From assembly GCA_903813345.2 (NCBI GenBank), contig CAIIXF020000001.1:19423915-19487914 (forward strand): DNA of 64,000 nucleotides, given 5' to 3'. Below the pieces are notes generated by a model. That model was not told where the DNA came from. It saw nothing but the letters and a program-made list of their open reading frames with translations, and did not search any database. Origin of the DNA: Owenia fusiformis. Taxonomy: Eukaryota; Annelida; Polychaeta; Sabellida; Oweniidae. Position 1 is the stretch's first letter; each line of letters begins with the position of its first letter. Below are positions 48,450 to 60,543 of this stretch, one piece after another. The position numbers and the translations under genes were made by a program.

Positions 48450-51400
48450 TTACACTATTGAGGCCCCACTGCTGGACATCCTAATACCCCCTGGATTCAT
48501 TCCATATCCTGGGTTACCAAAGTTGCCACCCTGCTCTCCCTCATCATACTGTGGTCCATTCCCATAATGCCCTGGTCTGTCTGCTCTCTGATAGCCTTGT
48601 GATGGATTAGAACTATATCTTGGCTCAGGATCATAATTTGTAGGGGGTGGTGGCCTTGCTGGATAGGAAAATTGATTTGGTTGTTGATAACCTCGGGGTT
48701 CCAACTCTGTATATGGGGGCTCTTGGATTGTACTGGGTAGAGGGGGTCTCTCGGGGACCTGAGGGGGGTCTGAGGATGCAGGAGAGTTTTGCTGGAATGG
48801 AGGCTGACCGAAGACCTGGGCTTGATTCTGGTAAACAGGCTGTTGTTTTCTTGATGGATTTGATTCAACAGATTGAGTTGGTCTTGAAGGATTTGACATT
48901 TGAAATTGAGGGGGCTGGGCTTGAGACATATGAGGCTGAGATTTTTGCCCATATGGTGGGGCATTATATGCAGAACTTGGGGGATTTTGTTGATTCTGAT
49001 GTTCAGCTTGTGGCTTGATGACAGGGTTGGCATTGTATGGGTTAGCAGAATACCTCGGTGGGGGAGGGCTTTCTGGGGGGTAAAGCACTCTTGCAACTGA
49101 AGGATGGTTAGAGGACTGGGGGGCATTGGCAGGGAGTGAGGATTGTGGGGAACGTGTTGGAGGGGGTGGTTTGTTCTGTTGATTGTTATAGTTCTCAGGC
49201 ACTTTGGGAGGCTGAGGTCGTCCTACATTTTTATATGGGGGTGAAGAGGGTGGGGAATCATTACGAGGTCTAGGGAACTCCCTGAGCTCAGGTGGTGGGG
49301 ATGGCAAGGGAGGGGTTGTGGGTGAGCGTGACAGGATTTCTTGGCGATCATAAATATTTGATTTAGGCCTTATATTGTCCACCCTGGGTGGTCTTGTAGC
49401 CCCAGGTAGTGATCTATAGTCTGGTTGGCTAGCTCCAGGAGAGTTATGTTGCACTGCATTGTGAGATCTACTATCAGGATTATTTACATGTGATGATCTG
49501 GCTGCCTTGGGGGAGGAGGCAGCCATTGGAAGATCAGCCTTCAGTTGGCCCAAACTGGGTAGTGGCATAGGGGGCCTCTCAGGCTCTACCCCTTTAGCTG
49601 GCCTTCCTGGGGGGTTAGCTTGGTAGCCCCCACCTTGGGGGTGTCTATCAGCAGGTGGCTCCTCTTCAATTGTACTAGGATACTGGGCATGATGGATCTG
49701 CATAGGGGCATGCTTAGGGGGTCTGTATTGCCCATACTGCATATGGTTGCTCTCCCTACTACTGTTACTTTCCTCAGACCCAATACGTCGCACTTCAGTG
49801 CTAGGGTTACTGTTACTATGGTTACCAGCAGTTGTTTGAGTGTTGCCATGGCGACCATGAGGAGGAATGTGATTGCCATGACCAGCAGGATTTGTACTGA
49901 TGCTTAAATTAGGGTCATCCTGGGATGTCTGTGAAGCATATGCTGGGGGTGATTCACTGTCACTCCCATAGTGGTGTTCATTATGGCTAACCTGTACCCA
50001 TGGCAACTGTTCCCTAGGTGCCTCATCACTTTTTCTATTCGTCCTATTTGATCTTTGTGTATTATTTTCCTCTAGCCGATCACGTGATCTGCTCCTACTA
50101 CCACGTCTATTCTGACTCCGTCCACTTGACCGAGTCCGATCTCTGGAGCGGTCACGATCTCGTGATCGGCTTCGTTTACTTGAACGGGTAGTTCCATTGT
50201 CAGTGGTATCCCCCTGAGGTGGCCTGCCACGACTGCGCTCGATCTCCAGAGTGGGGGCACCACTGAGTACACGTTCTACAGTGTCAAAGTTTGTTCTAGT
50301 ATTAGTCTGGTAAGTCATGTTGTCATTATACTGATCCTGAGCTCCTGGGGTCTTGTAGCGCATCTTAATATACTCTAACTCATCATTGGCTGGTTGCACT
50401 GCAAATATAGATAGCGCTCATGAGTGACAATTATTCAAATCATCATCGGAAAATATAATTGAATAAGTCATTTATTAGAATATTATATCCTGTTATACAG
50501 GAGTGAGATAAGATATTTTTATGAAATATTCACCAACTAATAATAATTTTGGGTGGATCTAATATACATAATGTATTATACTCACTATAATCCATGTTCT
50601 TACATTAACAAAATCATATATAAAGTACAAGACAGGGGAACCACATGTGTTAATCTGTTATACAACATTTAGTACATATACAGACAATAAAGATACATAC
50701 ACATACTAACAGCAAGCAAAGCTAACAACTTAGTATATAAAGCAAAACACTATACATATACATACAGGCCCTATACTACAAACATAAGACCCTATACTAA
50801 CAAAATGCCTAGTAGCAGGTATCTAAAATAGATTACATGATTGAAGATGCTTTAAGACTATTGTAAGTTCTGGGAGAGAATATTATGAATTTAAAATACA
50901 AATAATGGCAGCAAATACTTGTACAGTATAAAACATGGAAAACAAAAAACAACAATAAAGCAATAAAGTTGCATATGATATAATAGCTTAAAAGAGCTGA
51001 TGAAAATTACAAATAGGATTTGTAACAATGTAAATTAAATAAAATATGTGTACGCTACATAAGTGTTCAAAACCTCCATACATGTATTTATCATTGAACA
51101 ATGGTTTTATTCAATGATATTAGGCAGGTGTTTTCAATGTCTTTTTCAACAAAATGTTTTAGACATCAGCGTCATTGTAAAATGACAGTGATGTCCGGGT
51201 GTTAGATTTTGTATTGCACTGTATTGAATAAAGAACATATCCAAGTCACATGTGCCAATCAGATTGCTAGAAATTTCCCTGTCATTGAATATAATAATAT
51301 GCCAATTACTGAAGGAGCGGATTCATTAAGCGATAATTTTATTGGCTGTTTTCCTTGGAAAAGTTCTTCACTGAATCTCACTAAATTTCTCAGCTCCTTC

Positions 51401-60400: not shown

Positions 60401-60543
60401 CCCGACACGGCCCACTCTGGGGGGATCTGCCGGCTTGTGAATGATTCATGAACCTCTGGGGTTGTCTGGTTGACCTTACAACCAATACCATTATCCAACC
60501 ACCACGATTTGTTCCCTGTACCCAGGTTTAGTATGGAACTGTC
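48450..60543 (-). CDS. NKAIN: NKAIN (Na,K-ATPase beta-subunit interacting) homologue, long isoform, 5' exons outside window
   Basis: NKAIN proteins are four-TM membrane proteins that bind the Na,K-ATPase beta subunit. Coding exons seen: 60543-60340 (phase 0 both ends), 59356-59296 (ends phase 1) and 50398-48450. The first two encode [14 protein letters not shown], the second half of the extracellular loop, then the fourth TM ([16 protein letters not shown] plus [14 protein letters not shown]) and EEDDS, which match human SWWMENGPGC ... [20 protein letters not shown]. Earlier exons (TM1-3) lie beyond 64000. Splicing from 59296 to 50398 is in frame (T|TG = Leu) and adds 648 residues: [20 protein letters not shown], an RS-dipeptide run (about 50190-50060), then a Pro/Gln/Asn-rich disordered tail with PPRY and SH3-type proline motifs, ending GASIV, a class I PDZ-ligand form. 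NKS and NQT are possible N-glycosylation sites. Two other ends are annotated separately. Confidence 0.8.
51556..52984 (+). CDS. unidentified small gene nested in the NKAIN last intron, opposite strand
   Basis: Two well-supported exons: 52282-52449 (after CCCCATTTAG, before GTAAGT) and 52814-52984 (after AAATTGTAG, to a TAA), joined in phase 0. With the ATG at 52306 they give a 104-residue protein starting [19 protein letters not shown] and containing [19 protein letters not shown], then [17 protein letters not shown] third candidate exon upstream, 51556-51621 (TTCACAG acceptor, GTAAAA donor), keeps frame ([16 protein letters not shown]) and would mean the protein starts further upstream. A MITE (52617-52786) lies in the last intron. 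I do not recognise the family: no signal peptide, TM or catalytic motif is visible. The reading direction is opposite to NKAIN. Confidence 0.5.
52617..52786. mobile_element. 170-bp MITE with GGGGTTTC ends
   Basis: Starts GGGGTTTCGTTAGCAGC and ends TTCTAGTGAAACCCC; 'GCAGGCAACATG' near the left and 'TAGCCTGTTGTGAG' near the right are also inverted. A fragment identical to its right end lies at 10307-10348. It sits in the last intron of the nested gene. Confidence 0.65.
54059..54267. mobile_element. 209-bp MITE with 24-bp perfect terminal inverted repeats
   Basis: CTTAGCTTGTATTCACGAAT (54059 on, 24 bp in all) is exactly inverted at 54244-54267. Subterminal 'GGTTACCGGCTAGC' and 'GGTAGCTGACAGCC' are also roughly inverted. 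Probably hAT- or other DNA-transposon derived; no target duplication was established. Confidence 0.8.
55525..55649 (-). CDS. NKAIN: NKAIN alternative terminal exon (short, vertebrate-like C terminus)
   Basis: After a CTACTTGCAG acceptor at 55652-55650, the exon reads in phase with the exon ending at 59296 (T|TT = Phe): [20 protein letters not shown] then HMQLQPMY, almost the human NKAIN ending [27 protein letters not shown]. The frame runs on for [13 protein letters not shown] to a TGA at 55527-55525. In vertebrates a final splice follows the 'QPLY' residues; here GTATGT/GTGTAC donors overlap that point, so a tiny further exon is possible. It cannot splice in frame onto the exon at 50398, because that exon needs phase 1. 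The exons are therefore probably mutually exclusive ends. Confidence 0.75.
57383..58632 (-). repeat. CCCACCGAAC element with tandem 140-bp units, copy 2 (inverted)
   Basis: This is the reverse-complement counterpart of 43015-44218, about 1.25 kb, with the (GGACGAACGGAC)n microsatellite at 58553-58595 and the terminal CCCTCGAACTTCGTTCGGTGGG at 58608-58630. About eight units carry 'AAAATGGCCGCCATTTTGAA'. A further broken piece of the same end (AAAACAGCAACTCCCTGGGG) lies at 57191-57215. It lies in an NKAIN intron. Confidence 0.8.
59108..59356 (-). CDS. NKAIN: NKAIN exon with possible read-through terminus
   Basis: The exon 59356-59296 can also continue without splicing for 62 more codons to a stop at 59110-59108. 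The extension ([20 protein letters not shown], then [20 protein letters not shown] and [16 protein letters not shown]) is of balanced composition and looks like protein rather than intron. It would be a third C-terminal form made by intron retention. No match is recognised, and no canonical polyadenylation signal was found close by, so this form is uncertain. Confidence 0.35.
   Translation of the reverse strand, partial: LIGFIVSCYVIYIFTEEDDSCKYSSPQSQFYVLADLSYACDRPLVEAVNQMHDTTPTRESWTAPTYISFQDQFDTPSVNSVS
59381..59674. mobile_element. pogo/Tigger-type MITE with tandem 'GGAACACCTCTAGAAGT' array
   Basis: Left end AAAGTGAAACCTGTAATG, right end CTAGACAGGTTTACTGTA. The middle holds about eight copies of a 16-17 bp unit GGAACACCTCTAGAAGT. 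It begins 25 bp from the NKAIN exon acceptor at 59357, partly replacing the polypyrimidine region. Confidence 0.7.
59673..59849. mobile_element. second pogo/Tigger-type MITE, abutting the first
   Basis: Starts TACAGTAAAACCTGTCTAAT and ends ATAAACAGGTTTTACTGTA, 177 bp. The TA at 59673-59674 is shared with the preceding MITE, so one inserted at the other's target TA. Confidence 0.8.

Follow-up and report, generated by a model that had tools for sequence, protein, structure and literature searches.

The single NKAIN gene found in the annelid Owenia fusiformis probably has two mutually exclusive last exons, the distal of which would add a disordered tail of 649 residues to the conserved membrane body of the family. 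The stretch analysed, hereafter the window, comprises 64,000 nucleotides of contig CAIIXF020000001.1 (C1:19423915-19487914) and holds the 3' half of this gene, its 5' exons lying outside. Judged from the sequence, it is an invertebrate NKAIN gene, most likely with an ordinary choice of last exon; what surprises is how large the long tail is, and of what kind, for a protein that otherwise has 220 residues. The beta1 subunit of the Na,K-ATPase is described as the partner of the NKAIN membrane proteins (PMC3808344).

A search of the genome (498,259,871 bases, 525 contigs) with the NKAIN family profile (PF05640) gave four matches, weak ones possibly having been missed. All four belong, as exons, to a single minus-strand gene of C1, two of them inside the window and two outside. 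No second NKAIN gene was found by this search. The exons are listed below with the poly(A) signal of the long form; positions are those of the window unless preceded by C1, TM4 is the fourth transmembrane segment and a slash marks an exon border.

C1:19514403 (start), minus strand: exon 1, MGCCTGRCILITICIIQL then GTAAGT
C1:19505156-19505019, minus strand: exon 2, 138 bases, phase 0, AG/GT borders
C1:19491743-19491663, minus strand: exon 3, 81 bases, phase 0, AG/GT borders
60340-60543, minus strand: exon 4, encoding the loop and the beginning of TM4, both borders in phase 0, PF05640 profile positions 81-159, TTTCAG acceptor and GTAAGT donor
59296-59356, minus strand: exon 5 (TM4), ending in phase 1 at GATTCTT/GTAAGT, donor score 2.48
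55525-55649, minus strand: short-tail last exon, 41 residues and a stop, PF05640 profile positions 178-205 (E 1.1e-4 for the exon alone)
48450-50398, minus strand: long-tail last exon, 1,949 bases, 649 residues and TAA, with an RS-rich segment, then Pro/Gln/Asn-rich sequence and a C-terminal -SIV
47957-47962, minus strand: AATAAA lying 488 bases beyond the stop of the long exon, a candidate poly(A) signal of the long form

Measured from its start codon to the end of the long exon, the gene spans about 42 kb, and the predicted proteins are of 220 (short), 828 (long) and, for a candidate third end discussed below, 241 residues. That this is a genuine NKAIN gene, as originally predicted, was confirmed by the Pfam scores of the spliced proteins: the short form reaches 304.3 bits over profile positions 1-205 of 206 and the long form 250.1 bits over 1-178 of 206, with a cut-off of 25.9. 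Exon 1, located using a sequence pattern, supplies 18 residues, fills profile positions 1-18 and lifts the score from 275.8 to 304.3 bits; the match obtained without it covers positions 19-205. Exon 5 has a coding score of -1.6 bits and was identified via the profile match of the spliced protein. The short-tail exon contributes about 54 bits and carries the conserved NKAIN short tail (DFIGGFD...QLQP), which is absent from the long form. Body and short tail together therefore match nearly the whole profile of the family, to which vertebrate NKAIN1-4 and Drosophila NKAIN belong; to these, the gene described here would add a further last exon, encoding the tail of 649 residues, and a candidate read-through end that looks coding. 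In a Kyte-Doolittle plot of exons 2-5, taken without exon 1, there are three groups of windows above 1.6. A sequence search among solved structures gave no NKAIN structure, only two chance matches (E 1.6 and 1.8).

The TM4 exon was expected to end in phase 1 and to join in frame to acceptors at 55649 and 50398, and both were found there: ctacttgcag/TTGATT for the short end and ctatatttgcag/TGCAAC for the long one. Each carries TTGCAG and each lies in the phase demanded by exon 5. Scored with approximate weights, the acceptors reach 4.82 (short), 1.59 (long), 3.48 (exon 2), 2.82 (exon 3), 4.9 (exon 4) and 2.66 (exon 5), and the donors 6.83 (exon 4), 5.37 (exon 3), -0.27 (exon 2) and, as listed, 2.48 (exon 5). 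From exon 5 to the long exon the gene strand has 426 AGs; counting the sites themselves, 6 of these equal or surpass the short acceptor in score and 24 the long one. Since its acceptor is both stronger and nearer, the short end is the apparent default, and the long end appears to be a weaker, more distant choice. Other membrane proteins can have a short or a long cytoplasmic tail, depending on which of several terminal exons one donor is spliced to; these exons exclude each other, and each brings a stop and a poly(A) region. The sequence here holds the corresponding parts, namely one donor, two acceptors of the same phase and, for each last exon, a stop and a poly(A) signal, although the short exon has such signals only at a distance (nearest ones ATTAAA at +924 and AATAAA at +1081 from the exon end). 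In principle, the gene does not differ from other cases of alternative last exons, only the gene itself and the size of the tail being unusual.

The open frame of the long exon is far beyond chance. It remains open for 648 codons past the split codon, whereas in 2,000 Markov shuffles open runs reached at most 267 codons (median 101), and none of 3,000 shuffles of the exon was open throughout. Codon scores were trained on the open frames of 15 kinase loci (6,946 codons; 16 loci were fetched, L015 was excluded because of a stop in its match, and one of the 15 is without a checked motif); most of the kinase matches lie on contigs C1-C12. On this scale the proposed frame scores 242.5 bits and the next frame 158.7 bits with 12 stops. 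GC content by codon position is 57.6, 53.9 and 37.5% in the long exon and 50.9, 37.1 and 40.5% in the kinase frames. The change at the acceptor is abrupt: in 90-base steps the codon score runs from -11.7 to -3.3 upstream, is +6.0 across the acceptor and lies between +3.5 and +19.6 within the exon, and GC drops from 49% to 26% at 50400.

The long exon is assigned to NKAIN because of its phase, its acceptor, the change of composition and the want of another obvious partner, rather than by a sensitive exclusion of one. A scan of the gene strand from 59200 to 50420 (thresholds: coding score above 8 bits, acceptor above 0, donor above 2, length of at least 30 bases) gave no internal exon of that coding score with passable splice sites; the one initial exon that it gave is weak and ends in phase 1 (52458-52389, 6.6 bits). 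Several points weigh against the assignment. The scan is insensitive, as only exon 4 (14.2 bits) of the four known internal exons would pass it; exons 2, 3 and 5 (6.5, 0.8 and -1.6 bits) would be missed, and the donor of exon 2 also fails. A rival upstream exon could thus have escaped, which lowers the confidence placed in the join. The long acceptor is weak when set beside the short one, and an in-phase acceptor of equal strength would arise by chance within the 60 bases that separate the first ATG from the upstream stop in an estimated 1 of about 20 cases. Finally, the score for synonymous choice is -2.7 bits in the long frame as against +54.9 in the neighbouring frame with its 12 stops; it does not favour the long frame, so that the evidence for coding comes from openness and amino-acid composition.

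The long exon might instead be a separate downstream gene, either intronless from an ATG at 50363 or joined to a missed upstream exon. That ATG is in frame, has A at -3 and forms the twelfth full codon of the long exon, 35 bases inside it, and the first 12 codons, ATG included, score just +3.8 bits; the weakness of the long acceptor and the insensitivity of the scan would favour such a gene too. On the other hand, composition and codon score shift at the acceptor itself, phase and acceptor suit exon 5, and a stand-alone, purely disordered protein of 637 residues with no family match would be less expected than a tail. The promoter of such a gene would lie in the 50.4-51 kb stretch, which has 26-30% GC. 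On balance a separate gene seems unlikely, and an alternative last exon of NKAIN is the preferred reading of the long exon.

It was also predicted that the two spliced ends could not be combined in frame, which holds for the whole short exon but fails for a small piece at its start:

55638-55649, minus strand: candidate 12-base microexon with internal donor TAG/GTGGGT (G at 55637), adding FDFI, then V-QPANDEL

This piece would join the long exon in frame, which suggests a variant of the NKAIN reading, with the long exon reached through the 12 bases of the short one. The internal donor scores 4.7 and surpasses that of exon 5 itself, the 12 bases keep the frame and the DFI of the short tail would be retained; the donor is perhaps one of many well-scoring GTs. 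Microexons of 12 bases are rare. We regard this route as improbable.

The tail proved to be one residue shorter than the 650 first given, and its disordered character stood. It consists of 16.6% Pro, 12.0% Ser, 8.9% Arg, 8.5% Gln and 8.2% Asn, with 13.7% order-promoting residues as against 52.2% in exons 2-5, and it is predicted to be disordered because its mean hydropathy (0.335) falls below the charge-hydropathy boundary (0.421). An RS-rich stretch with a net charge of +12 occupies tail residues 66-130 and is followed by Pro-rich segments. RS/SR dipeptides number 27 (14.2 in shuffles, none of 1,000 reaching the count) and RSRS/SRSR 5 (0.1 in shuffles, 1 of 1,000 reaching it), whereas proline motifs remain at shuffle level: there are 18 PxxP (17.7 in shuffles, 523 of 1,000 reaching the count), 2 PPxY (0.8; 177 of 1,000), 3 SH3 motifs of class II (311 of 1,000) and none of class I. 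SP/TP sites are rarer than in shuffles (12 against 17.9). The tail ends in -SIV, which we take to fit the class I PDZ ligand motif; from composition, such an ending is expected by arithmetic in about 1.3% of random tails of the same make-up. No Pfam family was found in the tail at E up to 1 and no PDB sequence match at E up to 0.01, and a comparison of its first 75 residues with viral contigs gave no relatives (seven pattern matches, none confirmed).

The long form had been described as scaffold-like. Disorder, the RS stretch and the terminal -SIV agree with this description and the proline motifs do not; docking motifs beyond what composition provides would mark a scaffold, and in the tail RS-type motifs alone are in excess. 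Because proline motifs do not exceed composition, the term draws its support from the disorder, the RS-rich stretch and a single motif at the terminus, and as a reading of the long form it is weak.

A third C-terminus would arise if exon 5 were left unspliced:

59108-59295, minus strand: read-through extension of exon 5, candidate third C-terminus, 61 codons after the split codon and TGA at 59110-59108
58807-58812, minus strand: AATAAA lying 484 bases beyond the donor of exon 5, a candidate poly(A) signal of the read-through form

The frame had been reported to stay open for 62 codons; its openness and the TGA were found as described, and the count is 61, the figure of 62 including the split codon. 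The third end has more support than this openness alone. The extension has a coding score of +23.5 bits, whereas read-through past the donors of exons 1, 2, 3 and 4 extends for 4, 20, 5 and 35 codons and scores -0.9, -8.6, +0.4 and -1.7 bits. The frame was compared with 63,022 non-exon positions, taken on both strands from the introns of this gene and the DNA upstream of it and containing a few exon 2 bases. An open frame as long as the extension starts at 1,578 of them, and 14 score as high. These results, and the AATAAA downstream, speak against the view that the read-through end is mere unspliced pre-mRNA and its open codons a GC-rich accident. In composition-matched shuffles, an open frame of equal score occurs in 337 of 20,000 for the read-through, close to the 284 of 20,000 for exon 4 (2,418 of 20,000 for the short exon). 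The extension resembles exon 4 in this respect, and the same figure leaves room for chance, 13.9% of the shuffles being simply open over its length. In addition, frame -1 of the stretch is open too, frame -2, with five stops, has the higher synonymous score (11.8 as against 9.9 bits), and the extension has no Pfam family match. An accident is slightly the easier view to hold, and a real read-through C-terminus is a tentative proposal with somewhat less than an even chance.

Among demonstrated cases, the one closest to the third end is that of cockroach TEH1A and TEH1B, ancillary subunits of a sodium channel that acquire alternative C-termini via intron retention, with effects on channel density and gating (PMC3744522). 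In both cases a small partner of an ion transporter would have its C-terminus changed by a retained coding intron, which in NKAIN is a candidate. The cockroach case differs in that the intron has 96 bases, that it was established by cDNA and electrophysiology and that there is no 650-residue tail. TEH1 presumably belongs to a different family from NKAIN.

Other reports on NKAINs concern phenotypes and transcripts. Drosophila NKAIN mutants show temperature-sensitive paralysis (PMC3808344) and NKAIN is a modifier of dNf1 growth (PMC3836801); the passages on Drosophila NKAIN in these two sources give phenotypes and nothing on its tail. Vertebrate NKAINs had been taken to carry only the short tail; NKAIN2 transcripts are reported to differ between fetal and adult brain, the passage leaving the point of difference unstated (PMC3808344). 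For O. fusiformis, time courses of RNA-seq have been described (PMC9977687). Among the listed open-access matches naming NKAIN, judged by title and the start of the abstract, there were none on long-tailed or alternatively ended NKAINs.

A repeat or transposon origin was considered for the long exon and the read-through stretch and was rejected, each being single-copy, with its own place as its sole match in the genome. Repeats do occur in the introns of the gene. A tandem repeat at 59400-59639, with periods of 63 and 126 bases and GTGGAACACCTCT-like units, lies just upstream of the TM4 exon, and similar units are present in L001. Farther on, between exon 5 and the short-tail exon, the intron holds 5.9 copies of a 146-base tandem repeat (57686-58540), and a stretch similar to it reads as an open frame at 42943-43416. 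In the last intron, at about 52617-52788, is an interspersed repeat of approximately 172 bases. At least 39 further genomic places match it at 89-96%, a count that comes from scoring 40 of 2,685 candidates.

Elsewhere in the window, open frames with recognizable domains were found. On the minus strand, a frame of 588 amino acids (27820-29586) contains an HSF-type DNA-binding domain (PF00447, E 3.5e-9), and just downstream of it is a frame of 323 amino acids (26381-27352) with no Pfam match at E 0.01. On the plus strand, a frame of 337 amino acids (31094-32107) contains a nucleotide-diphospho-sugar transferase domain (PF03407, E 1.8e-19), and at 32865-35566 a reverse-transcriptase frame (PF00078, E 1.4e-21), whose end is overlapped by a second open frame, looks like a non-LTR (long terminal repeat) retroelement. 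RNA families gave no match in the window at gathering score. A search for mitochondrial COX1 gave no match.

Taken as a whole, the model of an NKAIN gene with alternative ends is a well-formed hypothesis. Exons 1-5 would encode the conserved four-TM body. Joined to the proximal short-tail exon, presumably by default, the donor of exon 5 would give the standard NKAIN of 220 residues; when the short exon is skipped and exon 5 is joined to the distal long exon, a protein of 828 residues with the same membrane body would result, bearing a disordered RS- and Pro-rich tail on the cytosolic side with its PDZ-type end. Should exon 5 remain unspliced and the RNA end in the intron, a third form of 241 residues may be made. 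The likely effect is that binding to the pump beta subunit would be kept while partners on the cytosolic side would change, with possible consequences for anchoring, phosphorylation or turnover. In a bolder version, which we consider doubtful, the long form would be the old invertebrate NKAIN, its phosphorylatable, PDZ-ending tail would anchor or cluster the pump, alternative ends would switch it against the plain form and an intron-encoded third one, and vertebrates would have kept the plain form only.

NKAINs have been linked to neuronal function, and nothing was found in the sources consulted on the role of their C-termini. Forms that share a membrane body and differ in their tails would allow a test of whether a tail places or regulates the sodium pump, and gene models based on the short vertebrate form would miss most of the long protein.

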